Below, piece after piece: positions 3,930 through 33,573 of a DNA stretch of 64,000 bases (positions are counted from its first letter, which is position 1; each line of letters starts with the position of its first letter). Location of the stretch: positions 475,348 through 539,347 of the forward strand of contig NC_017946.1 of assembly GCF_000263735.1 (NCBI RefSeq), written 5' to 3'. A program made the position numbers and the translations under genes. Below the pieces are notes generated by a model. The model was not told the origin of the DNA and made no database searches. It saw nothing but the letters and a program-made list of their open reading frames with translations. The stretch is from Pyrococcus sp. ST04. Lineage in GTDB: Archaea; Methanobacteriota_B; Thermococci; Thermococcales; Thermococcaceae.

Positions 3930-4466
3930 TTACTCTAGATATCCAAGCTCTCTGGCTTTTCTTATGACCAGCTCTGCCTCCTCCTCGGGTGTCATCTTTG
4001 AGGAATCTACTATAACCTCAGGGTTTTCTGGTTCCTCGTAAACCCCATCGTAACCCGTCAACCCCTTTATTTCACCGCGCATTGCCTTCTTGTAGAGTCC
4101 CTTGGGATCCCTTTGTATCCTAACCTCCAGAGGAGCATAGACGTAGACTTCAATAAATCTCCCTATCTCCTTCCTAGCGTATTCCCTAATCCTCCTGTAT
4201 GGGGATATTAGTGAAACTATCGCTATAACACCATTCCTTGTGAGGAGCTTTGCCATGTGAATTACAATCCTATTGTGCATCTCCCTGGCTTCCTTAGAAA
4301 AACCGAGGTTTGGGTAGAGGGTCTTCCTTATCGTGTCCCCATCGAGGATCTCAACCCTGTACCCCATTTCCCTCAACATCTTTGCAAGCTTCACTGCCAA
4401 AGTAGTTTTCCCAGCACCACTGGGTCCGGTGAGCCATATTGTGAATCCTTGCTCTAGGCTTTTCAT
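3930..4466 (-). CDS. cysC: Adenylyl-sulfate (APS) kinase
   Basis: Phosphorylates APS to PAPS, the second step of sulfate activation. It is a 178-residue P-loop kinase with Walker A GPSGAGKTT at residues 14-22, DGDTIRKTLYPNLGFS following, and the family motif GLYKKAMRGEIKGLTGYDG. An in-frame ATG lies 6 bp upstream, but GGGATGG sits correctly for the ATG at 4466, and the second copy at 31090 starts at the same residue. It is about 94 percent identical in protein to that copy by eye. It has its own TATA-like element near 4500 although it lies within the sulfate operon. Confidence 0.93.
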   Translation of the reverse strand: MKSLEQGFTIWLTGPSGAGKTTLAVKLAKMLREMGYRVEILDGDTIRKTLYPNLGFSKEAREMHNRIVIHMAKLLTRNGVIAIVSLISPYRRIREYARKEIGRFIEVYVYAPLEVRIQRDPKGLYKKAMRGEIKGLTGYDGVYEEPENPEVIVDSSKMTPEEEAELVIRKARELGYLE

Positions 4467-4487
4467 GGCCATCCCATAAAAAGATAA

Positions 4488-4512
4488 GCTGACACTTTAA
4501 AACTTTAAAGGA
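4488..4512 (-). promoter_or_regulatory. Probable internal promoter for APS kinase
   Basis: On the reverse strand CTTTAAAGTTTTAAAG lies about 30-45 bp upstream of the cysC start, in the 50 bp between the phosphodiesterase stop and cysC. The second cysC copy has a comparable AT-rich TATA-like stretch (31655-31672) at a similar distance. Retention in both copies suggests a real internal promoter, but this is a motif call only. Confidence 0.45.
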
Positions 4513-4516
4513 AAGA

Positions 4517-5914
4517 CTAGAGAAGGCTCCTCCCCTTTAGGGGCTTTTCGATTCCAAACAACTTGAGGACGGTTGGTGCGAAGTCATATATTGTCAGGCT
4601 TGTAACTTTTGATTCCTCGATCCCCGGCAGGTAGAGGGAAAACACCCCGTATTCTGAGTGAACCGCGTCGTCTGGGCCTGTATCGTTCTCCCTTAGGTAG
4701 GGGGTTGGATAGCCTAGGGTTCCCGCCGCCCTCCAGTTGAGGTCGTCAAAGTACACCATCATATCCGGCCTATCTCCTTTGGCAACCGGATATATATCCT
4801 CTGGATAGAATACCCTGGTCTCCCACTTCTCCCCATCGGGCCCCCTGATTGACTTTATTCTCTCTGCAACTTCTTCTCTAACATCATCGAACTTGCTTGG
4901 TGGAACGGTTCCCTTTGGTTCCCTTCCCTTGACGTTTATGAATACCCTCGAGTAATATCCTCCCCATCCCCATGCCGTTGTTTCTTCCCACTTTACGTTC
5001 ACTTTATCTAGCCTTATTGGCCCTCCCTCCCTCGGCATGTCTTCAATCTTTAGGAGCCCTTCTTCGGCCATCCAGTGGTTTACGGCAAATGCTCCCTTCA
5101 TAGCTTTTATGCCGTGATCAGAGACTATTATGACCGCCGTTTCATCGAGATCTAGAAGCTTTAAAGTTTTGCCTATCTCCTTGTCTAGTAGTTTGTAGTA
5201 CTCGGGGATCACGTTCTCGTAAGGGTTGCCCTTGCCAGGGTAAAGATGGTGGTTCTCGTCGAAGAACTTCCAGAAGGCGTGGTGAACCCTGTCTAGGCCT
5301 ATCTCGACAAACTGGAAGTAATCCCAATCCTTCGCCTCGATCAAATACCTTATTACTTCAAACCTTTTTTTAGTCATCTCCCATATCTTGTCCCTAACTT
5401 CGTCCCTGTTCTCCTTTCTGAATACTACGTCGAATATGTACTCCCCAACTACTCTCTCTATCTCCCCCTTGAGCTCCTTGGGATACGTGTAATCAACCTC
5501 TGGACCAGGTGTTATGAAGCAACTTATTAGCCACCCGTTCACCTTCTTTGGAGGATAGCTCGGGGGTATTCCAATTAGGACTGACTTCTTTCCCTTTTCG
5601 GCGATATAATCCCACACTGCTTTTTCCTTTATCATTCTGCTGTTCGCTATCCAGATATCATTGTAGGTTCCTCTCTTCCTGTGCCTGAACCCATAAAGGC
5701 CGAGCTCTCCCGGCGTCTTTCCCGTAGCCATTGTCATCCACATGGGGATGGTTATCGCTGGTATTCCGGTTTTCATTGGGCCATATATTGACTTTTCCAA
5801 CAGCTTCTTTATGTGTGGCAGGTCATCTATAAACCTGTGGAAGAGCAGTTCGGGTGGCGCTGAATCTAGTCCGATAACGAAGACCTTCTTAACTTCCTCA
5901 AGGTTAAACTCCAT
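4517..5914 (-). CDS. Type I phosphodiesterase/nucleotide pyrophosphatase-family protein
   Basis: 465 residues of the alkaline phosphatase superfamily, nucleotide pyrophosphatase branch. D17 (VFVIGLDSAPPE) and T55 (AITIPMWMTMATGKTPGE) fit the first metal ligand and nucleophile, and VSDHGIKAMKG near residue 264 carries the second metal pair. The C-terminus DFAPTVLKLFGIEKPLKGRS is typical. There is no signal peptide, so it is likely cytosolic. Its start overlaps the DHH gene by 11 bp with GGAGGTG upstream, indicating translational coupling. Conserved position inside a sulfate-activation operon suggests a nucleotide or sulfated/phosphorylated substrate, but the substrate is unknown. Its C-terminal half recurs in the chimera at 32170-33573. 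Confidence 0.85.
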   Translation of the reverse strand: MEFNLEEVKKVFVIGLDSAPPELLFHRFIDDLPHIKKLLEKSIYGPMKTGIPAITIPMWMTMATGKTPGELGLYGFRHRKRGTYNDIWIANSRMIKEKAVWDYIAEKGKKSVLIGIPPSYPPKKVNGWLISCFITPGPEVDYTYPKELKGEIERVVGEYIFDVVFRKENRDEVRDKIWEMTKKRFEVIRYLIEAKDWDYFQFVEIGLDRVHHAFWKFFDENHHLYPGKGNPYENVIPEYYKLLDKEIGKTLKLLDLDETAVIIVSDHGIKAMKGAFAVNHWMAEEGLLKIEDMPREGGPIRLDKVNVKWEETTAWGWGGYYSRVFINVKGREPKGTVPPSKFDDVREEVAERIKSIRGPDGEKWETRVFYPEDIYPVAKGDRPDMMVYFDDLNWRAAGTLGYPTPYLRENDTGPDDAVHSEYGVFSLYLPGIEESKVTSLTIYDFAPTVLKLFGIEKPLKGRSLL

Positions 5915-6899
5915 TCCTTTTCACCTCCAAATAGCTCATTATCAAGTTGAGAACCCTTAACAGATTTTTCTTCTCGCATACGCATCCCAGGACGTCATTT
6001 TTGCCACCTGCATTCAGCCCCATGCTTATCAACTTTTCAATCAGCTCAGGAACGTTAACACTTCCCAACGCTCTGGGGGAAACCCTGAGGTAAACTTGAG
6101 AGATGCCGTGGAAGTCTTCGTTAACTACCAATGCAACATCATGCCCAAACTCCCACACGAGCTTTCTTCCCACTTTCGATATTATGTTCAGTGGACTTTT
6201 GAATCTAACAATTGCAAGTTTGCCCTTTAGAATAACTTTCCTCAAGGCTTTTTCAACTTCTCTCTCAATCCTCTCAACATTTTTTATCCATTGTTCGTAG
6301 TATAGTAGATCTTTCAACTCGTTGGAGAGAAGAACGTGGAGGGCTTCTTCAACGGCCCTTCTATCGACGAGTATGTAGTTTGAGTCGATTAGCTCAACTA
6401 ACCTTAGAGCATCTTTGCGTGAAAGTCCCTCGGCCTTCAGTAGCTCGTTGACAGTAGGAATTTCAAATGCCCTTTCCCCTAAGTCCCCTACCGCTCCAAT
6501 AGCACTCCATCCGTTCCATACATTGAAGTGTTCGGAAACGACAAACGATGCTGATGGACAGCTCTTTCCAGCCAAGGTTGGATTTATTTGAGTAACCCTT
6601 GGGTTCTTAATCCTTGGCTGAACGTGGTGATCTATGAAGAGCGTCTCCTTTGGAATTCTCTCAGCTTCCTGCGGCACGTTTAGGTCTAGCACGTAGACTC
6701 TCTCCGCTTCTTCAATTGCCCTCCAGATTCTATCATCGAAGCGGAACTCCCCTATTTGAGGGGTTACATTCTCAAAATCCTCAAGCTTTAGCGCCTTCAC
6801 CAATATGGCGGATGATGTGATGCCGTCCGTGTCCCAGTGATGGATTATCAGATGCATGTTATTAGGGCAACCTAACGGCTTATTAGCTTTGTTCCTCAT
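5904..6899 (-). CDS. DHH-family phosphoesterase, candidate PAP phosphatase
   Basis: 331 residues. The DHH-superfamily motifs are visible: HHWDTDG at residues 20-26, LDLN near 71-74 and DHH at 90-92. Family members include NrnA-like enzymes that remove the 3' phosphate from pAp. Adenosine 3',5'-bisphosphate is the by-product of PAPS-dependent sulfation, and this gene sits between the exporter and the APS kinase, so recycling of PAP is a reasonable inference. The ATG at 6899 follows the tauE stop by 2 bp and is preceded by GTGGTGGTC. A truncated version lacking the DTDG and DHH motifs forms the middle of the chimera at 32170-33573. Confidence 0.85.
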   Translation of the reverse strand: MRNKANKPLGCPNNMHLIIHHWDTDGITSSAILVKALKLEDFENVTPQIGEFRFDDRIWRAIEEAERVYVLDLNVPQEAERIPKETLFIDHHVQPRIKNPRVTQINPTLAGKSCPSASFVVSEHFNVWNGWSAIGAVGDLGERAFEIPTVNELLKAEGLSRKDALRLVELIDSNYILVDRRAVEEALHVLLSNELKDLLYYEQWIKNVERIEREVEKALRKVILKGKLAIVRFKSPLNIISKVGRKLVWEFGHDVALVVNEDFHGISQVYLRVSPRALGSVNVPELIEKLISMGLNAGGKNDVLGCVCEKKNLLRVLNLIMSYLEVKRNGV

Positions 6900-6901
6900 T
6901 T

Positions 6902-7636
6902 TCAGACCACCACTATTGCAACTCCAAGTACGAGTATTATGAAGTTAATTAACTTCCTCAGCTTCTCCTCATCCACCTTGCTGTTAACCTGAACACCAAC
7001 GTACACTCCAGGCAGGGAGCCGGCTATTAATGGTCCCACCATTCTCAAATTAACGAATCCCAGGTAGGCATAGTTAAGGAAGCTCAAAGCCGAAAGCATC
7101 AAGCCGTAGGCAATTGACACTCCTGCAACGTCTTTTGGACTTAGCCTGGCTAGGTTCACAAGGACGAACGTCACGACTACCCCAGCACCAACTGATGTAA
7201 ACTGCACGATTAAACCAACAACAAAACCAAGGAAGTATAATTGATAGGGCTTGATCTTTATTTTCGGATAAAGTCTCTCTTTGACGATGTTAAGGAAAGA
7301 GCTAGCTATCAAGGTTACTCCTAGAAATAGTGTTAGGTAGTGATTGAGGGTATCTTTGCTGAATGTTTTGAGTATTAGGAACCCTAGGCCCACTGCCGGC
7401 AGGCTGCCTAATAAAAGTCCGGCTACAAGGTTCCACTTAATTCTCCCTCTCTTCTGGTAGAGCACCAGACCAAACATCTTGGTTACACTTGCGAATAGAA
7501 GATCACTCCCTACAGCAACTAACGGCTCAACTCCCAAAAATATTAAGGAGGGCGTCATTAAGGCCCCGCCGCCTATTCCACTCAGCCCTACCAGAAACCC
7601 CACTACAAATCCAAGCAGTGGAAGCATCATTTTCAC
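6902..7636 (-). CDS. TauE/SafE-family sulfite/anion exporter
   Basis: About 244 residues with eight hydrophobic segments and the internal two-fold repeat of the family: GLSGIGGGALMTPSLIFLGVEP in the first half and FTSVGAGVVVTFVLV in the second. The family moves sulfite, sulfoacetate or related anions across the cytoplasmic membrane. It overlaps the end of sat by 4 bp and is followed directly by the DHH gene, so it belongs to the sulfate operon; sulfate uptake or export of a sulfur anion is inferred. The start could be GTG at 7636 or ATG at 7630. A diverged paralogue lies at 30343. Confidence 0.88.
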   Translation of the reverse strand: MKMMLPLLGFVVGFLVGLSGIGGGALMTPSLIFLGVEPLVAVGSDLLFASVTKMFGLVLYQKRGRIKWNLVAGLLLGSLPAVGLGFLILKTFSKDTLNHYLTLFLGVTLIASSFLNIVKERLYPKIKIKPYQLYFLGFVVGLIVQFTSVGAGVVVTFVLVNLARLSPKDVAGVSIAYGLMLSALSFLNYAYLGFVNLRMVGPLIAGSLPGVYVGVQVNSKVDEEKLRKLINFIILVLGVAIVVV

Positions 7637-8772
7637 TCTATGAACGGCTTCTCAAAGCTTCTTATAACCTCGTAAACCTCGGGCCTCATCATGTACTCTG
7701 GAGGCTTTTCTCCACTCATTATCATCTTTCTCAGCTTTGTTCCGCTTATTCTTACGTGGAACTCCTCGCTGTGAGGGCATATCTTCTCGTTGACCATGCC
7801 GCCACATTTCTTGCAGTAGAATGCTTCTCTTATGAACATTGGGGTTATTCCTAAATCGGGAAATTCATCGAAGAGATCCCAGGCCTCGTAGGGGCCGTAA
7901 TAGTTTCCTACCCCAGCGTGATCCCTCCCCACTATGAAGTGTGTTGCCCCAAAGTTCTTCCTCATTATGGCGTGGTGTATGGCCTCTCTTGGCCCAGCAT
8001 ACCTCATCTCATACCTCACAGTTGCGAGAACAGTAACGTTTTTCGGATAGTAGTGCTCGAAGAGAACTTCATAAGCCCTTATTATGACTTCATCCTTGTA
8101 ATCTCCCTTCTTCTTCTTTCCAAGTACTGGATTTATGAAGAGTCCGTCAACAAACGTCAATGCTGCCTTCTGGACATACTCATGGCCGAGATGTGGGACG
8201 TTTCTTGTCTGAAATGCAACTATCGTTTTCCAGCCTCTCTCTTTGAAGAGCACTCTGGTTTCAACAGGCCTTAGAGTGTACTTTGCGAACCTGTTGGGAA
8301 GCTCATTTAGAAGCTCTATCTCACCCCCAACCAACCACTCACCCATCGAGTACACCTTGGCAACCCCAGGATGGTTGGGATCATCGGTCTTGAAGACCTT
8401 TTTTGCAAATTCCTTTTTGTCGTATTTGTAAATCTCCTCCACATGCATTCTGGCTATGGGGAGGTCTTCGTAATACAGAAGAACTGCATCTCCCTCGTCA
8501 AATGTTTTCTCCTTAATATCAAGGACTATGGGAATTGTCCACGGAAGGTCATTGCTTAGTCTCATATTGTCAAGAACGCTTTGAAAGTCGTCACTTGTAA
8601 GGAATCCCTTAAGGGGGGAATACACACCGTGGGCTATGTTTTCTAGGTCTATGGCTCTTCCATGGTCTATTTGGACTCTAGGATACTCATGCTGTTCGCT
8701 AAGGATTCTTTCTCTAGTTCTCTCCGCAACGATTCTCCTAACGAGCTTTCCGCCGTGAGGCTTAGAGACCAT
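7633..8772 (-). CDS. sat: Sulfate adenylyltransferase (ATP sulfurylase)
   Basis: Forms APS and pyrophosphate from ATP and sulfate. 379 residues, the normal length for the monomeric archaeal/bacterial Sat type. The active-site motifs QTRN (178-181) and HLGH (184-187) are present, as is GRDHAGVGNYYGPYEA. A likely zinc-binding group CKKCGG...CPHSEEFH lies near residues 323-340. It is preceded by the small protein gene at 8799 (26 bp) and followed with a 4 bp overlap by tauE. Together with cysC it gives a full route from sulfate to PAPS. The first 70 residues are nearly duplicated in the chimera at 32170-33573. Confidence 0.95.
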   Translation of the reverse strand: MVSKPHGGKLVRRIVAERTRERILSEQHEYPRVQIDHGRAIDLENIAHGVYSPLKGFLTSDDFQSVLDNMRLSNDLPWTIPIVLDIKEKTFDEGDAVLLYYEDLPIARMHVEEIYKYDKKEFAKKVFKTDDPNHPGVAKVYSMGEWLVGGEIELLNELPNRFAKYTLRPVETRVLFKERGWKTIVAFQTRNVPHLGHEYVQKAALTFVDGLFINPVLGKKKKGDYKDEVIIRAYEVLFEHYYPKNVTVLATVRYEMRYAGPREAIHHAIMRKNFGATHFIVGRDHAGVGNYYGPYEAWDLFDEFPDLGITPMFIREAFYCKKCGGMVNEKICPHSEEFHVRISGTKLRKMIMSGEKPPEYMMRPEVYEVIRSFEKPFIE

Positions 8773-14729: not shown

Positions 14730-15788
14730 ATGAAAGCTTTAATACTCTCTGGCGGCCACGGCACTAGGTTAAGGCCCCTGACGTACTCCCAGCAGAAGCA
14801 ACTTATTCCAGTAGCAAACAAGCCTGTCCTGTTTTATGCTATAGAAGATGTCATTGAGGCAGGCATAAGAGAGATAGGTATCATCGTTGGGCCAAATGCT
14901 GAACTCGTGAAGAAAACAGTCCTAAGTGTTGACTGGGATGCCGAGATAGAGTTCATCTACCAAGGAGAGCCCAAAGGTTTGGCACATGCCATACTCGTTG
15001 CAAGGGATTACCTTGGCGATGATGACTTCGTGATGTATCTGGGGGACAACATATTAAGAGAGGGGATAGTCCGGCATAAAGAAAAGTTCGAGAAAAGTGA
15101 CTATGATGCCAGCATTCTTCTCTGTGAAGTTCCTAACCCACAGCAGTTTGGAGTAGCTGAGCTTAGTGAAGATGGGAAAACAATAAAGAGGCTTGTTGAG
15201 AAGCCAAAGCATCCGCCGAGTAATCTGGCCTTAGTGGGTATATACTTCTTCAGACCGATAATCCATGAAGCCGTGAGGCACATAAAACCCTCATGGAGGA
15301 ACGAGCTTGAGATAACAGACGCGATCCAGTGGCTGATAGACAACGGTTACAAAGTGGGATGGACAAAGGTTACGGGGTGGTGGAAGGATACTGGGAAACC
15401 AGAAGACCTGCTTGAAGCTAATAGGCTTGTCTTGGATGAAATTGAAAGGGATGTGAAGATAGACACGAAGGCTAAGATAATTGGAAGGGTTAAGATTGAG
15501 GAGGGAGCTCAAATAGATGAGAACACCGTCATAAAGGGGCCCGCAATAATAGGGAAGAACGCCGTGATAAGGAACGCCTACATCGGCCCCTACACGAGTG
15601 TAGGAAACAACGTGGTCATAGAAGATACTGAAATTGAAGACTCGATAATCATGGATGGGAGCGTTATAATAGGGGCTGGAAGGATAATAGAAAGCATCAT
15701 AGGTAGGGATGTGAGGATAGTAAGGAGTGATGGACACCCTTCGGGCAGAAGGCTAATAGTGGGCGACAAATCCCAGCTCATCTTGTGA
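14730..15788 (+). CDS. rmlA: Glucose-1-phosphate thymidylyltransferase
   Basis: Makes dTDP-glucose from dTTP and glucose 1-phosphate, the first step to dTDP-rhamnose. 352 residues from the ATG at 14730; an upstream in-frame ATG at 14697 lacks homology and ribosome binding site. The nucleotidyltransferase motif ALILSGGHGTRLRPLTYS starts at residue 3 and QKQLIPVANKP follows. Residues after about 245 form a left-handed beta-helix of hexapeptide repeats (IIGRVKIEEGAQIDENTVI, IIGKNAVI), which marks the long RmlA type common in archaea. It is followed after 9 bp by rmlB. Confidence 0.93.
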   Translation: MKALILSGGHGTRLRPLTYSQQKQLIPVANKPVLFYAIEDVIEAGIREIGIIVGPNAELVKKTVLSVDWDAEIEFIYQGEPKGLAHAILVARDYLGDDDFVMYLGDNILREGIVRHKEKFEKSDYDASILLCEVPNPQQFGVAELSEDGKTIKRLVEKPKHPPSNLALVGIYFFRPIIHEAVRHIKPSWRNELEITDAIQWLIDNGYKVGWTKVTGWWKDTGKPEDLLEANRLVLDEIERDVKIDTKAKIIGRVKIEEGAQIDENTVIKGPAIIGKNAVIRNAYIGPYTSVGNNVVIEDTEIEDSIIMDGSVIIGAGRIIESIIGRDVRIVRSDGHPSGRRLIVGDKSQLIL

Positions 15789-15797
15789 GGTGAAAAC

Positions 15798-17888
15798 ATG
15801 CGTGTTTTGGTAACGGGTGGGATGGGGTTCATAGGGAGCAACTTCATACGATATATACTCAAGAAGCACAAGGACTGGGAGGTAGTAAATGTTGACAACC
15901 TAAGCTACGGGTCAAACCCAACAAATTTAAAGGACATTGAAAGAGATCCACGCTATACTTTTATTAAAGGCGACATAGCTGACTTTGAGCTTGTTAAGGG
16001 GCTTGTGAAGAAGGTAGACGCTGTAGTTAACTTTGCGGCGGAAAGCGTTGCAGAAAATGAACTTGTAGCGGTTTACAGAAATGGCAGAATCAGCCTCGTA
16101 ACGTTTGGTGAATTGTTTAACCAGCTAAGTAAAACCAATAAGGTAATAAGAGACGGGAAGCATGAAATAATTGACGTTTCGGGCAGGAACATAAAAGTGC
16201 TATCCTTTTATAATGGGTATGGGGCATGGTTTCCACTAAAAAAAGTCATTCGACATTATTATAAAGGAAAACTCTTATGTTTGCGTCAAAAATGGGGAGA
16301 AATTTGTGTGACCCCAAATCACTCCGTATACGATGTTTTTGGAAACCTCGTTAGTGCAGATTCAAACCCAGAGCTTTTGGCAATTAGAAGAATAAACTAT
16401 TATCCCCATGAACATAAGTTCAGGAACACTGCTAAGGTTCGTGCTGAGGGAAATGGTCACTTAAGGGTAGTCCTCGACAAGGTTTATACTGAAGAGAAGC
16501 TAGAAGCACTTCTAAGACTGCTCGCAGCGTATATTTCAGAGGGTAATGCCACTTATAACAAAGCAAACGGCTCTTATACTGTAGTTATAAGTAGCGGTAA
16601 TAAAGAGTGGTTAGAGAGACTCGCGAAGGATTACAAATTGATTTCAAATGGCTCATATTCAATTACAAAACGAAAAAACGGGGTCTATCAGCTGGAATTA
16701 AACAGTAAAGAGTTTCATCAAATGTGTGTAAAACTCTGCGGCAAAAATGCTTCAGAAAAAAGGCTTCCAGATTTTGTATATGGGTTGGACAGGAAATATC
16801 AGGAGTTATTCTGGAAAACGCTATTAGAAGGAGATGGAACGTATAGGCAGTGGGAAAGGAATAAAACTGCTGAGTACACAACGGTCTCAAGAAGATTGGC
16901 GGCTGGACTAGGCTTGCTTCTAGCAGTTATGGGCATTGATTACACTTATTACATAAGTAAGCCGAGAAACGGTAACCACACCTCATATACCATTAGAACA
17001 AGGCTATTTTACAACGTCTCTACTGGAAAAAGGGAGATAATTGAAATCGAGTATGAGGGTTATGTCTATGACTTAGAAGTCGAAAAATCCCACAACTTTA
17101 TAGCGGGCGTTGGGAATATAGTAGCCCATAATACTCACGTTGATAGGAGTATCTCAAATCCATATCTATTCGTTAAGAGCAACATTCTTGGTGTTTACAC
17201 GCTTTTAGAAGCAATTAGAAAGGAGAATCCTGAGGTTAGGTTCGTCCACATAAGCACCGACGAGGTTTATGGAGACATACTCAAGGGCTCCTTCACGGAG
17301 GAGGACAGGCTTATGCCTTCCTCGCCTTACTCTGCCACCAAAGCGGCGGGTGATATGCTTGTACTCGGCTGGGCCAGAACCTACGGCTTGAATGCCTCCA
17401 TAACGCGGTGCACCAATAACTACGGCCCCTACCAGTTCCCTGAGAAGCTCATACCCAAGACTATCATCAGGGCGAAGCTCGGTTTAAAGGTTCCCATATA
17501 TGGAAGCGGGCAGAACGTTAGGGACTGGCTTTACGTCGAGGATCACGTGCGGGCGGTTGAGGCGGTTCTGCTAAGGGGGGAGGCAAGGGAAGTTTACAAC
17601 ATCTCAGCAGGGGAAGAAAGGACGAACCTTGATGTTGTTAGGACGATATTAAGGATTATGGACAAGGATGAGTCTCTTATAGAGTTCGTTGAGGACAGGC
17701 CGGGCCATGACTTACGCTATTCACTCGATTCTTGGAAGATCATGAGAGAGCTCAAGTGGAGACCCAAGTACCGGTTCGAGGAAGGCATTAAGAAGACCGT
17801 CGAATGGTACCTTGAAAACGAGTGGTGGTGGAGGCCATTGGTAGACGAAAAAGTCCTCCACCCAACTCCATGGAAGCTGGAGTGGTAG
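15798..17888 (+). CDS. rmlB: dTDP-glucose 4,6-dehydratase containing an intein
   Basis: The 696-residue precursor is an RmlB of about 333 residues split by a 363-residue intein. The N-extein has the Rossmann motif GGMGFIGSNFIRY and ends FAAE at residue 82; the C-extein resumes THVDRSISNPYLF. Joined, they give FAAETHVDRSI, the conserved RmlB sequence beside the NAD site. The C-extein carries STDEVYGD and YSATKAA (Tyr-xxx-Lys catalytic pair). The enzyme dehydrates dTDP-glucose to the 4-keto-6-deoxy sugar and should be active only after splicing. GAGGTG precedes the ATG. rmlC follows after 52 bp. Confidence 0.95.
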   Translation: MRVLVTGGMGFIGSNFIRYILKKHKDWEVVNVDNLSYGSNPTNLKDIERDPRYTFIKGDIADFELVKGLVKKVDAVVNFAAESVAENELVAVYRNGRISLVTFGELFNQLSKTNKVIRDGKHEIIDVSGRNIKVLSFYNGYGAWFPLKKVIRHYYKGKLLCLRQKWGEICVTPNHSVYDVFGNLVSADSNPELLAIRRINYYPHEHKFRNTAKVRAEGNGHLRVVLDKVYTEEKLEALLRLLAAYISEGNATYNKANGSYTVVISSGNKEWLERLAKDYKLISNGSYSITKRKNGVYQLELNSKEFHQMCVKLCGKNASEKRLPDFVYGLDRKYQELFWKTLLEGDGTYRQWERNKTAEYTTVSRRLAAGLGLLLAVMGIDYTYYISKPRNGNHTSYTIRTRLFYNVSTGKREIIEIEYEGYVYDLEVEKSHNFIAGVGNIVAHNTHVDRSISNPYLFVKSNILGVYTLLEAIRKENPEVRFVHISTDEVYGDILKGSFTEEDRLMPSSPYSATKAAGDMLVLGWARTYGLNASITRCTNNYGPYQFPEKLIPKTIIRAKLGLKVPIYGSGQNVRDWLYVEDHVRAVEAVLLRGEAREVYNISAGEERTNLDVVRTILRIMDKDESLIEFVEDRPGHDLRYSLDSWKIMRELKWRPKYRFEEGIKKTVEWYLENEWWWRPLVDEKVLHPTPWKLEW
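16044..17132 (+). other. Intein in RmlB with LAGLIDADG homing endonuclease domain
   Basis: Intein residue 1 is Ser (AGC at 16044), starting SVAENELV. Block B is VTPNHSV with TxxH at intein residues 90-93. Two dodecapeptide endonuclease motifs are seen: LLRLLAAYISEGN near residues 158-170 and LFWKTLLEGDGTY near 255-267. Block F is VYDLEVEKSHNFIAG and block G is NIVAHN followed by Thr as the +1 extein residue. All splice-site residues of a class 1 intein are therefore present (Ser1, TxxH, His-Asn, Thr+1). Both endonuclease motifs retain an acidic residue, so homing activity may persist. Base composition resembles the host genes. Confidence 0.95.
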
Positions 17889-17940: not shown

Positions 17941-18498
17941 ATGCCCTTCGAGTTCATTCCTCTTGAAATACCGGGTGTCATCCTAATAAAGCCTAAGGTT
18001 TTCGAAGATGAGAGAGGCTTTTTTATGGAGACATACAAGAGGTCGGACTTTGAGAAGGCCGGCATTAAGGGGGAATTTGTCCAGGATAACCACTCCCGCT
18101 CGAAATACGGTGTCCTCAGGGGCCTGCACTTCCAGAGGGAGCCCTACGCACAGGCCAAGATAGTGAGGGTTGTGAGGGGGGTCATCTTCGATGTGGCCGT
18201 GGATCTCAGGCGGAACTCTCCTACCTTTGGGAAGTGGGTTGGTGTGATACTCTCGGAGTTCAACAAATGGCAATTGTACATTCCGAGAGGTTTTGCACAC
18301 GGCTTCGTTGTCCTTAGCGACGTCGCTGAAGTAGTGTACAAGGTTGACAGCGTCTATGCGCCCGATCACGAGGCAGGTATAATCTGGAACGATCCAGATA
18401 TAGGGATAAAATGGCCGATAGACAATCCAGTACTCTCAGAGAAAGACAAGAAATGGCCAACCCTCAAAGAGGCCATCAAGAAGGGGTGGGTGTTCTAG
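17941..18498 (+). CDS. rmlC: dTDP-4-dehydrorhamnose 3,5-epimerase
   Basis: 185 residues, the usual length. It inverts C3 and C5 of the 4-keto-6-deoxy sugar. Family motifs: GVIVIKP-like GVILIKPKVFEDERGFFMET at the N-terminus, VQDNHSRSKYGVLRGLHFQ (the active-site His region) and PRGFAHGFVVLSD. GAGGTGATC sits 6 bp before the ATG at 17941; a GTG at 17932 is part of that binding site and is rejected as start. A toxin-antitoxin remnant separates it from rmlD. Confidence 0.93.
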   Translation: MPFEFIPLEIPGVILIKPKVFEDERGFFMETYKRSDFEKAGIKGEFVQDNHSRSKYGVLRGLHFQREPYAQAKIVRVVRGVIFDVAVDLRRNSPTFGKWVGVILSEFNKWQLYIPRGFAHGFVVLSDVAEVVYKVDSVYAPDHEAGIIWNDPDIGIKWPIDNPVLSEKDKKWPTLKEAIKKGWVF

Positions 18499-18751: not shown

Positions 18752-18838
18752 TCGTTTGATAGTGATTTTGTTGAGGAGAAGGGAATACACCTCCTAAATT
18801 CTCCCGAAGAGGGAACCAATGTAGGTGATGTCCCGTGA
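18752..18838 (+). pseudogene. C-terminal fragment of a VapC (PIN-domain) toxin
   Basis: The 28 codons read SFDSDFVEEKGIHLLNSPEE and end at the TGA at 18836-18838. The Asp-containing FDSDF followed by a short strand and NSPE is how PIN-domain VapC toxins end. The first hundred or so codons, including the other catalytic acids, are missing. The stop overlaps the rmlD start. Confidence 0.6.
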
Positions 18839-19701
18839 AGGTTGCTGTTATCGGCGCCACTGGCCAGCTGGGGAGCGACATAGTTGAGGTATTCTCTAAG
18901 GATCTGACCTTTGAAGTCATCCCATTATCTCATAGAGACGTAGATGTAACAGTATTAGAGAGCCTCAAGGTGCTCGAAAGGATCAAGCCGGATGTAGTAA
19001 TAAATACCGCCGCTTATGTTAGGGTTGATGATGCAGAACTTCATCCCGAGGAGGCCTTCCGCGTCAATGCGATTGGAGCTTTAAACGTTGCAAAAATAGC
19101 GGAGAAAATTAACGCTATAAACGTCTACATAAGCACGGACTATGTTTTTGACGGTGAGAAGGGGAAGCCTTATACTGAAGACGACATCCCAAATCCAATA
19201 AACGTCTATGGGGTGAGTAAGTACGTTGGCGAAATTTTCACGCGGAACTATTCAAGTAGGCACTACATAATAAGGGTGGCCAGTCTCTACGGAAAAAAGG
19301 GAGCAAGAGGCAAAGGTGGGAACTTCGTTGAGTGGGTAATAGAGAGGGCAAAGAAGGAGGAAAAGCTCAGGGTAGTAAGTGACCAGTTCATGAGCCCAAC
19401 TTATACGAAAGATGTTGCAGCAGGTTTGGCCAAGTTTCTCAAAATCATGCCCGAATATGGAGTTTATCATATGACCAACGATGGCTTCTGCTCGTGGTAT
19501 GAGTTCACAAGGGCTATCTTTGAAATCCTTGGCTGGGACGTTGAGGTAGAACCCATAAGCTCCACAGAACTGAATAGACTGGCAAAAAGGCCGAAGTTCT
19601 CGGCGCTGAGCGTTAAAAAGCTCGGGAACATTGGTATTAAGATGAGGCACTGGAAAGAAGCCCTCAAGGACTACCTTGCTGAGAAAAAATATATATCATA
19701 G
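18835..19701 (+). CDS. rmlD: dTDP-4-dehydrorhamnose reductase
   Basis: 288 residues, a short-chain dehydrogenase that performs the last NAD(P)H-dependent step to dTDP-L-rhamnose. The nucleotide-binding motif GATGQLGSDI is at the N-terminus, STDYVFDGEKGKPYTE and YGVSKYVGE (catalytic Tyr-xxx-Lys) follow, and the sugar-binding part is C-terminal. The start is GTG at 18835 with GGTGATG about 6 bp upstream; the start overlaps the vapC fragment stop. It completes the rmlABCD set. Confidence 0.93.
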   Translation: MKVAVIGATGQLGSDIVEVFSKDLTFEVIPLSHRDVDVTVLESLKVLERIKPDVVINTAAYVRVDDAELHPEEAFRVNAIGALNVAKIAEKINAINVYISTDYVFDGEKGKPYTEDDIPNPINVYGVSKYVGEIFTRNYSSRHYIIRVASLYGKKGARGKGGNFVEWVIERAKKEEKLRVVSDQFMSPTYTKDVAAGLAKFLKIMPEYGVYHMTNDGFCSWYEFTRAIFEILGWDVEVEPISSTELNRLAKRPKFSALSVKKLGNIGIKMRHWKEALKDYLAEKKYIS

Positions 19702-30342: not shown

Positions 30343-31080
30343 TTATCTCCCGTTTAAAAGCGTAAACAGGCCGATGAGTAGGATAATGAAGTTTATAACC
30401 TTCTTCAGCCGCTCCTTATCAGCTCTTGCGTTCACATGGGTTCCAAAATAAACGCCCGGAACCGTTCCCAAAATAAGCGCCCCCGCCAGTTGATAGTCAA
30501 CGCTTCCCATGCTCGCGTAACTTAGGAAACTGAGGGCGGAAAGCGCTAGGCCGTAGAAAATAGTCGTCCCCACAACATTCCGCGGGTTTATCTTGGCCAC
30601 ATTCATCAGGGAGAAGCTTATGATAACTCCAGCACCAACGGATGTGAAATGGACAGTCAGGCCGACGATGAAGCCGAGCAGGTAAACGTAGGCCCACCTC
30701 GGCCTTACTGGAATGCTAATTTCACCCCTCAGAAGGCTCAGCGTCGCCGTAACGATAAGAATGATCCCGAGGACGAGTGTTAGATGCCGATTGAGCAGCT
30801 CCTTCGGCAGGTGCCTCACGATGTAGCCCCCCACAAGCACGGCAGGCACACTCCCGGCCAGGAGGCGGAATGCTATGTCCGTCCTCACGTGTCCCCGCCT
30901 GCCATGGAAGAAAACCCCAAAAACCCTCGTCACCGTGGCGTATAGCAAATCGGTTCCTACCGCGGTCAGCGGCTCAACGCCCAAGAATATGAGGGCGGGC
31001 GTCATCAAAGCTCCTCCACCCACTCCGGTAAGGCCAACCAAAAATCCCACGACGAAGCCAAGGAGGATAAAGGCTAGCAT
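30343..31080 (-). CDS. TauE/SafE-family anion exporter, second copy
   Basis: 245 residues with the same eight-helix, two-repeat layout as the gene at 6902 (GLTGVGGGALMTPALIFLGV and FTSVGAGVIISFSLM), but clearly diverged from it in protein sequence. Codon use is much more GC-rich than in the first copy. It lies directly behind the second APS kinase (9 bp), whereas in the first cluster tauE follows sat. The frame is intact and it is probably functional. The anion transported is not known. Confidence 0.87.
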   Translation of the reverse strand: MLAFILLGFVVGFLVGLTGVGGGALMTPALIFLGVEPLTAVGTDLLYATVTRVFGVFFHGRRGHVRTDIAFRLLAGSVPAVLVGGYIVRHLPKELLNRHLTLVLGIILIVTATLSLLRGEISIPVRPRWAYVYLLGFIVGLTVHFTSVGAGVIISFSLMNVAKINPRNVVGTTIFYGLALSALSFLSYASMGSVDYQLAGALILGTVPGVYFGTHVNARADKERLKKVINFIILLIGLFTLLNGR

Positions 31081-31089
31081 GCTCCTCCC

Positions 31090-31626
31090 TCACGGTAGGT
31101 AGCCGAGCTCCTTGGCCTTCTGAATGACAAGCTCCGCCTCCTCCTCGGGCGTCATCTTTGAAGAGTCCACCACAACCTCAGGATTTTCGGGCTCCTCATA
31201 GACGCCGTCGTATCCGGTTAATCCCTTTATCTCGCCACGCATGGCCTTCTTGTAGAGACCCTTCGGGTCCCGCTGAATCCTGACCTCGAGCGGCGCATAG
31301 ACGTAAACCTCGATGAAGCGGCCTATCTCTTTTCGGGCGTACTCCCTGACGGCCCTGTAGGGAGAAATCAGGGACACTATGGCTATAACGCCGTTCCTGC
31401 TCAGGAGCTTGGCCATATGTATAACGACGCGGTTGTGCATCTCCCTGGCCTCTTTTGAAAAGCCAAGGTTCTGGTAGAGGGTCTTCCTTATCGTGTCGCC
31501 ATCAAGAACCTCCACGCGGTATCCCATCTCCCTGAGCTTCTTGGCGAGCTTTACAGCCAAAGTCGTCTTTCCAGCACCGCTCGGCCCCGTGAGCCATATA
31601 GTGAACCCCTGCTCCAGGCTCTTCAT
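31090..31626 (-). CDS. cysC: APS kinase, second copy
   Basis: 178 residues with Walker A GPSGAGKTT at residues 14-22 and all family motifs intact. Only about 11 residues differ from the copy at 3930, yet synonymous positions are strongly shifted to G/C. This suggests transfer from a relative with a more GC-rich genome rather than a recent duplication within this chromosome. GAGGTC precedes the ATG. No complete sat accompanies it here, so it would have to use APS from the first cluster. Confidence 0.92.
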   Translation of the reverse strand: MKSLEQGFTIWLTGPSGAGKTTLAVKLAKKLREMGYRVEVLDGDTIRKTLYQNLGFSKEAREMHNRVVIHMAKLLSRNGVIAIVSLISPYRAVREYARKEIGRFIEVYVYAPLEVRIQRDPKGLYKKAMRGEIKGLTGYDGVYEEPENPEVVVDSSKMTPEEEAELVIQKAKELGYLP

Positions 31627-31654
31627 CTTGACCTCTTCCAGGAAAGGCCGCCGT

Positions 31655-31672
31655 TGAGTTTTAAAATTTTGG
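31655..31672 (-). promoter_or_regulatory. Likely promoter of cysC copy 2
   Basis: On the reverse strand CCAAAATTTTAAAACTC is a TATA-like stretch 30-45 bp before the ATG at 31626, in a position matching the AT-rich element before the first cysC. Confidence 0.45.
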
Positions 31673-31781
31673 TCACAGAGGCAGAAAAACCTTGCCCATC
31701 AGGATGCGGAAACCCGCAACCCCCGAATTATATGATGGTGGACAGAACGGATTTAATCAGATAAGCACAATTTCCTTATCC

Positions 31782-31856
31782 TCATCGCAGGCACGCTCTC
31801 CCAACCGTTTTCTCGAAGGAGAACCTTTGAGAAGGAGATGCGTCAATGACTATCAC
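31782..31856 (-). pseudogene. VapC toxin remnant
   Basis: Starts at GTG 31856 with VIVIDAS, the N-terminal strand and first catalytic Asp of a PIN-domain toxin, then runs into unrelated residues and stops after 24 codons. The GTGA overlap with the vapB stop is the normal vapBC arrangement. Most of the toxin is deleted. Confidence 0.6.
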
Positions 31857-31998
31857 GATCCTCCCTCACGAGCCTTTTTGCCCTCCCCTCGGGAACCCCT
31901 GGGAGTGTCTTAACGACTTCTATGAATCTTTCGAGGGCTTTTCGCTTCTTTTCCTCCTCTTTATAATCTATGTGAACGCTGATAACAGTCGAGCTCAT
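31843..31998 (-). pseudogene. VapB antitoxin with deleted DNA-binding domain
   Basis: A 51-residue frame from the ATG at 31998: MSSTVISVHIDYKEEEKKRK, then ALERFIEVVKTLPGVPEG and REDRDSH. The first strand and the C-terminal toxin-binding tail (LPxVPxG...REDRDSH) match Thermococcales VapB, but the two helices of the ribbon-helix-helix fold between them are missing. It overlaps the vapC remnant at the stop codon as intact pairs do. Confidence 0.6.
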
Positions 31999-32047
31999 GT
32001 AGTTCACCCATACGAACATAGTTTTTAAGTCTCTCCCTAAAACATCA

Positions 32048-32106
32048 TAACGATGATGATCCCACCCTTGGCTGATGTTATGATGAGGTCTCGTGGTTCT
32101 GACTCG
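32048..32106 (+). ncRNA. C/D box sRNA (2'-O-methylation guide)
   Basis: All four boxes are perfect and correctly spaced: C box ATGATGA (32053-32059), 12 nt guide TCCCACCCTTGG, D' box CTGA (32072-32075), 4 nt spacer, C' box ATGATGA (32080-32086), 12 nt guide GGTCTCGTGGTT, D box CTGA (32099-32102). Such RNAs direct 2'-O-methylation through L7Ae, Nop5 and fibrillarin. By the box+5 rule the targets would be the fifth base of CCAAGGGTGGGA (D' guide) and of AACCACGAGACC (D guide); I cannot locate these in rRNA or tRNA from memory. A TTTTTAAGT TATA-like element lies about 30 bp upstream. Confidence 0.82.
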
Positions 32107-32169
32107 CCTCCACTCCTCCACAACCATCTTAAACCTCGTCGCATCCCTCAAAAAAGATTAAGGAGTAAA

Positions 32170-33573
32170 TTAAACGATGCTCCTTCCCCTGAGTGGCTTC
32201 CTCATCCCGAAGAGCTTCAGCACCGTCGGTGCGAAGTCGTATATCGTCAGCTGTATCCTTTTTGCCTCGTCCATACCGGGCAGGTATAGGGAGAACACGC
32301 CGTATTCCGCATGCACGGCATCATCTGGTCCAGTGTCGTTCTCCTGAAGATACGGTGTCTCATAACCTAATGTCCCGGCAGCCCTCCAGTTCAGATCATC
32401 GAGGTAGACTATCATATCTGGCTTGTCGCCCTTGGCGACGGGATATATCTCCTCCGGATAGAACACCTTAGTATCCCACTTCTCGCCGTTCGGACCCCTG
32501 ATGCTCTTTATAAGCTCCGCAACCTCATCTCTGACCTCCTGGAACTTCTCGGGCGGAACTACACCGTGCGGCTCCCTCCCCTTGACGTTGATGAACACAC
32601 GGGAGTAGTAGCCGCCCCAAGCCCATGCAATCGTCTCGTTCCACTTCACTTTCACCTTGTCGAGCCTTACTGGCCCTTCCCTCGGCGGGTTCTCGACCTT
32701 AAGGAGTCCCTCCTCGATGAGCCACTGGTTTATGGCAAAGGCACCCTTCATGGCCTTTATCCCGTGGTCCCTCAGCTTCTTGATTATGGTCGGGACACTT
32801 ATCCTATCGGTTTCCTTCGGTGAGACCCGGAAGTAGAGCTGGGCCTTTCCGTGGAAGTTGTGGTTCACGACGACCGCACCCCGGTAGCCCTTCTCCCAGA
32901 CGAGCTTTCTGGCAACTTTTGAGATTATGTTGAAGGGGCTCTCGAACTCGACTATAGCGAAGCCGTTTCTCTCCTCAACGCTCGATATGGCTTCTTCAAT
33001 GGTCTCCTTTGTTGCCTCCACCTTCCTGACCCACGGTTCGTATTCGAGCAATTCTTTGGGCTCATGGCCGAGGAGGACGTGAAGGGCTTCCTCAACTGCC
33101 TTTCTATCCATCACAATGTAGTTCGAGTCAATCAGCTCGATGAGCCTCAAGGTGTCTTCCCTTGAAAGTCCCTCCGCCTTTAGAAGCTCCTCGACGCGGG
33201 GTACCTCGAGGGCCCTCTTACTCATGTCCCCCATGGCACCGAGGGCGCTCCAGGCATTCCAGATGCCGAAATACTCCGAGACGACCAGGGAGGCTGAAGG
33301 GTAATGCTTTCCTTCAAGGGCTGGATTTACCTGCCTAACCTTCAGGTTCTTAATCCTCGGCTGCATATTATCTAAAACGCTCTGGAAGTCGTCGCTCGTT
33401 AGAAAGCCTTTTAGGGGCGAATAGACTCCGTGGGCTATGTTTTCAAGGTCTATGGCTCTGCCATGGTCTATCTGAACGGACGGATATTCGTGCCGCTCGC
33501 TAAGTATCCTCTCGCGGGTTCGCTCGACCACTATCCGGCGTATAAGCTTGCCGCCGTGGGGCTTTGAGACCAT
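32170..33573 (-). pseudogene. Chimeric open frame: Sat N-terminus + DHH middle + phosphodiesterase C-terminus
   Basis: A single uninterrupted 467-codon frame made of three gene pieces. Residues 1-70 match Sat 1-70, nearly identical to the first copy up to SVLDNM. Residues 71 to about 268 match the DHH phosphoesterase from QPRIKN onward. Residues from about 269 (DHGIKAMKGA) match the C-terminal 200 residues of the phosphodiesterase. Lost are the Sat QTRN/HLGH active site, the DHH DTDG and DHH motifs, and the phosphodiesterase nucleophile region. The joins lie near 33363 and 32769. No known activity can survive, yet there is no stop. Codon use is GC-rich like the adjacent cysC and tauE copies. 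Confidence 0.85.

Follow-up and report, generated by a model that had tools for sequence, protein, structure and literature searches.

A Ser1-type LAGLIDADG intein in RmlB of Pyrococcus sp. ST04 and its probable homing between archaeal rmlB genes

The dTDP-glucose 4,6-dehydratase (RmlB) gene of Pyrococcus sp. ST04 carries an in-frame insert, here termed RmlB-a, which we hold with high confidence to be a Ser1-type, LAGLIDADG-bearing mobile intein at a defined RmlB site, in a precursor presumed to be self-splicing, with homing between archaeal rmlB genes. The gene lies in the window, i.e., the whole stretch of 64,000 nucleotides that was analyzed. The carriers of RmlB-a are scattered in the RmlB tree and include one contig from outside the Thermococcales, and a second, dissimilar intein occupies another site of the same enzyme in other archaea.

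Anatomy of the host gene and the intein

A single stop-free open reading frame (15798–17888; 696 codons, 696 aa) encodes RmlB with the intein inserted in frame. The host assignment is based on the equivalog model TIGR01181 (dTDP-glucose 4,6-dehydratase), matched at 515.7 bits (cut-off 365.1), and on the adjacent rmlA, rmlC, and rmlD. The two flanks of the insert align collinearly over their whole length with P. horikoshii RmlB (2hun), which has no insert. Joined, the N- and C-exteins come to 333 residues, which is the usual length of intein-free Thermococcales RmlB and agrees with the product of about 333 residues that an earlier note on this DNA had predicted. The same note had placed a 363-residue intein with a LAGLIDADG endonuclease inside RmlB at 16044–17132, and these coordinates are exact. 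The features of the locus are as follows.

14733–15788, + strand: rmlA-like glucose-1-phosphate thymidylyltransferase (Pfam NTP_transferase and Hexapep)
15798–16043, + strand: N-extein of RmlB, residues 1–82, ending in NFAAE (TIGR01181, which matches the host in two stretches; 2hun residues 4–86)
16044–17132, + strand: intein RmlB-a, 363 aa, Ser1 to Asn363 (Pfam and NCBIfam intein models above cut-off; four close same-site homologues; fold match to PI-PkoII and TliVMA)
16044–16334, + strand: N-terminal splicing region, with block A at Ser1 (SVAENELV) and block B CVTPNHSVY (T90-x-x-H93), from a 15-intein alignment
16479–16973, + strand: LAGLIDADG homing endonuclease domain, intein residues about 146–310 (LAGLIDADG_3; 2cw7 residues 275–415; I-DmoI fold matches)
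16518–16544, + strand: first LAGLIDADG motif LLAAYISEG, catalytic acid E166 (PI-PkoII alignment)
16821–16838, + strand: second LAGLIDADG motif LLEGDG, catalytic acid D264 (PI-PkoII alignment)
17061–17132, + strand: C-terminal splicing region, with block F YVYDLEVEKSHNF and block G NIVAHN (TIGR01443 above cut-off)
17133–17888, + strand: C-extein of RmlB from the +1 Thr (THVDRS...), with the stop codon (TIGR01181; 2hun)
17941–18498, + strand: rmlC, dTDP-4-dehydrorhamnose 3,5-epimerase (Pfam dTDP_sugar_isom, 262 bits)
18835–19701, + strand: rmlD, dTDP-4-dehydrorhamnose reductase (Pfam RmlD_sub_bind, 291 bits)

The insertion separates Glu82 from residue 83; the AGC codon of Ser1 begins at 16044, and the AAT codon of Asn363 ends at 17132. 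In Pfam, the insert matches Intein_splicing (PF14890) at 45.6 bits (cut-off 35.8) and LAGLIDADG_3 at 39.4 (22.5), and in NCBIfam it matches the intein C-terminus model TIGR01443 at 34.0 (15.6) and the intein N-terminus model TIGR01445 at 28.9 (24.5). The insert hence passes the intein cut-offs of both collections; judged by these scores, a chance match to the intein models is excluded. Among 15 aligned inteins, T90, H93, Y342, D343, and N363 are invariant, and S1 occurs in every sequence that reaches the first column. All five RmlB-a copies, including one from a metagenome-assembled genome (MAG) described below, retain S1, T90/H93, H362–N363, and the +1 Thr. D264 is likewise present in all five, and position 166 is Glu in the four Thermococcales copies and Val in the MAG copy.

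An AlphaFold run limited to the five close copies yielded a poor model (pLDDT 45.7) and was repeated with the 15-intein alignment, for which pLDDT reached 83.3 and pTM 0.85. Searched with Foldseek, the whole modeled intein matched 2cw7 (E 1e-22), TliVMA (7qsu; TM 0.71 over both lengths), PhoVMA, PI-PfuI, PI-SceI, 5o9i, and 4e2t, while its endonuclease part matched I-DmoI. The fold of the model is that of a HINT domain plus a LAGLIDADG endonuclease, and splicing and DNA cutting by RmlB-a are predicted from these features of sequence and model. The precursor would self-splice through an acyl shift at Ser1, transfer to Thr+1, and cyclization of Asn363, which would yield the 333-aa RmlB required for dTDP-rhamnose synthesis. 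Automatic annotation would report a 696-aa RmlB, whereas the predicted active form has 333 residues.

Among characterized inteins, PI-PkoII (Thermococcus kodakarensis DNA polymerase intein 2; 2cw7/2cw8) shares the three-part collinear anatomy of RmlB-a (phmmer E 3.8e-22); it is the top fold match, and the catalytic acids of both motifs align. However, it resides in a DNA polymerase, is about 30% identical, and has 537 aa as opposed to 363, the extra segments being missing in RmlB-a. TliVMA and PhoVMA (7qsu, 7qst) resemble RmlB-a in size and overall fold (TM 0.66–0.71) but differ in their VMA host, in Cys1 (the solved forms are C1A mutants) in place of Ser1, and in sequence (18–21% identity). 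The nearest sequence relatives found outside RmlB are polymerase-type inteins of Thermococcales and Thermoproteota (L053–L057, L066–L069; 27–32% aa identity), which have the same block order. Their type was judged by flanks of the KILAN|S and YSD|TDS kind, which indicate other hosts and other insertion sites. No relative more than 40% identical to RmlB-a was found outside RmlB. The window genome itself contains a polymerase-type intein (flank KILAN; L005, G000:C1, about 378–380 kb) whose LAGLIDADG motifs are damaged (HYVREG and YL--NGN), whereas the endonuclease in RmlB is intact.

Distribution and movement of RmlB-a

The precursor was searched against 94 Thermococcales genomes, with true rmlB defined by at least 74% identity. 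Such a gene occurs in 42 of them, the others having only relatives of 32–37% identity, which bears out the earlier description of the locus as accessory. RmlB-a occupies the identical site in four Thermococcales genomes, namely the window genome, G021, G086, and G089 (86–88% aa), and 35 of the 42 rmlB-bearing genomes have no RmlB intein at all. In the comparison of orthologues that had been suggested earlier, 29 intein-free Thermococcales copies and 2hun are all continuous across the site. A scan of one genome per GTDB species, which is not exhaustive as G021, G086, and G089 are absent from its listing, returned one further RmlB-a at the same site, in the contig JALTTZ010000057.1, titled Nitrososphaeria archaeon (76% aa; the MAG copy). 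When 400 genomes of the MAG's class were searched with a profile, no second close RmlB-a came up, the next best match scoring 85 bits vs 773. No viral carrier of RmlB-a or of the second RmlB intein was found in IMG/VR, none turned up in phage records, and no plasmid record covered 80% of the precursor.

In all ten carrier pairs, the inteins are more identical than the exteins, in protein as well as in DNA; examples are the window–MAG pair (intein 76.0% vs extein 67.9% aa) and G086–G089 (94.3% vs 85.9% nt). As the extein is a conserved enzyme, shared ancestry does not readily account for an intein that is more alike than its extein. The tree of 63 exteins splits Thermococcales RmlB from Thermoproteota RmlB with full support. 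The window copy and intein-free G004 are sisters (99/93), as are G021 and intein-free G043 (100/100), while G086 and G089 lie at the base of the Thermococcales and the MAG within the Thermoproteota (96/92). The carrier label requires four changes on this tree, and constraining the carriers to one clade is rejected, with p 1.6e-5 when the four Thermococcales are held together and 6e-6 when the MAG is included. The G+C content of the intein is below that of the extein in all five carriers (0.393 vs 0.485 in the window). These scattered hosts, together with an intein identity that exceeds extein identity in every pair, argue that RmlB-a has moved horizontally.

The possibility that the MAG contig is a Thermococcales contaminant was considered and rejected, given that its extein groups with Thermoproteota, that it is 71.4% identical to its nearest neighbor vs 67.9% for the best Thermococcales copy, and that its rml order differs. 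Its nearest neighbor is the intein-free gene of G628, with which the C-extein alone shares 75% identity; since the extein is nearest to Thermoproteota genomes, the rmlB gene of the MAG appears native, while its intein does not.

Transfer of the whole rmlB gene, or of the rml cluster, together with its intein, as opposed to homing into resident genes, is an unlikely account overall. The rml clusters are accessory and exchanged, and intein-bearing genes occur in separate genera, as such transfer would predict; however, the gene closest to each carrier extein is intein-free and never that of another carrier (window–G004 87.4% aa, G021–G043 94.9%, as well as the MAG and G628), and the cluster order is rmlC-B-D-A in the MAG vs rmlA-B-C-D in the window. 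Whole-gene transfer may still hold for G086 and G089, in which both intein and extein are alike.

It is also quite unlikely that the intein is kept as a conditional switch, gating RmlB activity under stress, be it thermal, redox, or other. The insertion interrupts a conserved motif, so the unspliced precursor should be inactive, and the window genome has no other high-identity RmlB-like gene. Splicing-dependent control is, moreover, said to have been proposed for Thermococcales RadA by Liman et al. in 2024. Against this stand the 35 rmlB-bearing genomes that dispense with any RmlB intein, and an intein-free second copy in G089, which would bypass the gate. In that genome (L112, contig 13; L044), intein-bearing and intein-free rmlB genes occur together, with exteins about 87% identical in nucleotides. 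This vacant copy runs against an active endonuclease, which might be expected to fill it; possible explanations are that the site does not match, that the assembly is mixed, or that the nuclease is inactive.

The timing of the movement differs between carriers. The earlier note had spoken of recent homing or transfer, of which horizontal transfer is upheld by the scattered carriers and the excess of intein identity, but 'recent' is not supported for the window copy, which differs from its nearest known intein by a dS of about 1.5, near saturation, with 51% identity at 4-fold sites. The only pair that looks recent is G086/G089, with a dS of 0.23 for the intein vs 0.92 for the extein. Vertical inheritance of RmlB-a from before the split of Thermococcales and Thermoproteota, with loss in most lineages, is very improbable, for although every carrier pair is well diverged, the count of four changes alone cannot separate gain from loss, and precise intein losses are known (PMC10643990), this history would require about 38 independent precise losses or replacements among the 42 rmlB-bearing Thermococcales genomes and conflicts with the rejected carrier clade, with inteins more alike than the surrounding enzyme in every pair, and with the dS values of G086/G089.

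Horizontal movement by homing, in which the endonuclease would cut vacant rmlB alleles and repair would copy the intein gene in, sometimes with the +1 Thr codon, also bears on the residue that follows the intein. FAAE/THVDRS had been described earlier as a conserved host segment; the site is indeed conserved, but Thr at +1 is not the norm of the Thermococcales enzyme, as intein-free Thermococcales read AAE-S-HVDRS in 28 of 29 copies. Most Thermoproteota copies have Thr, as do all carriers. Among Thermococcales, the +1 Thr is found in all four carriers vs one of the 29 non-carriers (Fisher p 1e-4, or 8e-4 with the carriers counted as three lineages). The simplest reading is that RmlB-a came from a Thr-type gene and that the +1 codon was carried along in repair, i.e., by flank co-conversion. 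The Thr of the carriers could also have arisen by single-base mutation plus selection, since one base change turns Ser AGC/TCN into Thr ACN. When co-conversion tracts were sought as dips of extein identity near the insertion, with 271 control pairs, the signal was weak: window/G004 fell in the lowest 2–4% before correction, and the other pairs did not. Among the intein-free rmlB genes of Thermococcales, only that of G073 (L015; ASE-T-HVDRS) has Thr where the intein would insert; this is possibly a footprint of precise intein loss, although one base change also explains it.

The dN/dS of the endonuclease is 0.03–0.09 where dS can be estimated, by which measure the domain is under purifying selection. 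The MAG endonuclease, with E166V (codon GTA), is probably dead, though the substitution could be a sequencing error, as the contig title gives a coverage of about 2. At their shared site, TliVMA and PhoVMA present one active and one degenerate endonuclease (PMC8966425), and active beside degenerate copies of RmlB-a would fit this prediction of the homing cycle (PMC8966425). With rmlB patchy and exchanged, vacant targets would keep arising, and the endonuclease would be kept under selection.

A second insertion site and RmlB as an intein host

A second intein, RmlB-b, precedes the TDEVYG segment of RmlB in two Thermococcales genomes and one Thermoproteota genome; the Thr-Asp-Glu motif of that segment is catalytic in RmlB. 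The flanks of the site have the general form HxS|...HN|TDEVYG. The copies and a related pseudogene are located as follows.

L039, 4659–6176, + strand: RmlB-b, before the catalytic TDEVYG
L040, 555–2069, - strand: RmlB-b, same site
L109, 1913–3466, - strand: RmlB-b, same site
L041, about 5570–7000, - strand: rmlB pseudogene of G010, from the same genus as the window

In G068 and G052, RmlB-b has 505–506 aa at HIS|SVTGD...HN|TDEVYG, and in the Thermoproteota genome G726 it has 518 aa and is 53% identical. The pseudogene of G010 retains the C-terminal half of RmlB-b, the N-extein and the N-terminal part of the intein being gone, and contains several stops and a later frameshift. Since RmlB-b is only 27.5% identical to RmlB-a, it represents an independent invasion of rmlB. 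Across phyla, its intein identity (53–56%) is about equal to that of the extein (54–55%), values that carry no sign of recent cross-phylum transfer. The earlier note was silent on this second site, on the cross-phylum copy of RmlB-a, and on the Ser-to-Thr difference at +1. The idea that insertion falls at the most conserved DNA was not sustained: by Thermococcales–Thermoproteota identity, site a ranks 25th and site b 121st among the 326 windows compared, so only site a fits, and loosely.

Tentatively, and with somewhat less than even confidence, we propose that hyperthermophilic archaea have repeatedly acquired inteins in RmlB. Two inteins unrelated to each other, at AAE[S/T]HVDRS and at the catalytic TDE, would each have crossed the Thermococcales/Thermoproteota boundary, RmlB-a bringing a Thermoproteota-type +1 Thr into Ser-type genes, and an exchanged accessory glycan gene would serve as the reservoir that keeps a homing endonuclease active. 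A sugar-nucleotide host has a precedent in the Methanocaldococcus UDP-glucose dehydrogenase intein listed in InBase. The earlier remark that RmlB is not a common intein host is in line with the literature, in which our search, with many journals outside its coverage, found no paper pairing an intein with dTDP-glucose; the one paper it returned that mentions both intein and RmlB concerns flagellin glycosylation in Geobacillus. As far as could be checked, RmlB is a new intein host with two new insertion sites for a known kind of element.

Reviews put about 67% of archaeal inteins in replication, recombination, and repair proteins, a concentration that has been called unexplained (PMC5874633). 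That RmlB-a, with an endonuclease under purifying selection, occupies one of two used sites in a dispensable and patchily distributed sugar gene and is shared between phyla speaks to the question of whether inteins need essential hosts at all or only a constant supply of vacant alleles. The haloarchaeal MCM-a and MCM-d inteins (PMC10643990) resemble those of RmlB in the use of several insertion sites in one gene, in horizontal movement, and in co-conversion at +1 (Pro to Ser for MCM-d; Ser to Thr, by inference, for RmlB). They differ in that MCM is an essential replicative helicase for which homing was shown in vivo (PMC10643990), whereas RmlB is accessory and the homing of RmlB-a is a prediction. 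With carriers that have close intein-free relatives, the RmlB system opens gain, loss, and co-conversion to study in a genetically tractable order.

Elsewhere in the window, two copies of a cassette comprising APS kinase, a permease, ATP-sulfurylase, and a phosphodiesterase-family gene lie on the - strand at 3930–8772 and 30343–33573. In the second copy, a deletion of the middle part would account for the frame 32170–33573, in which the start of the ATP-sulfurylase (PUA_2) runs on into the end of the phosphodiesterase.
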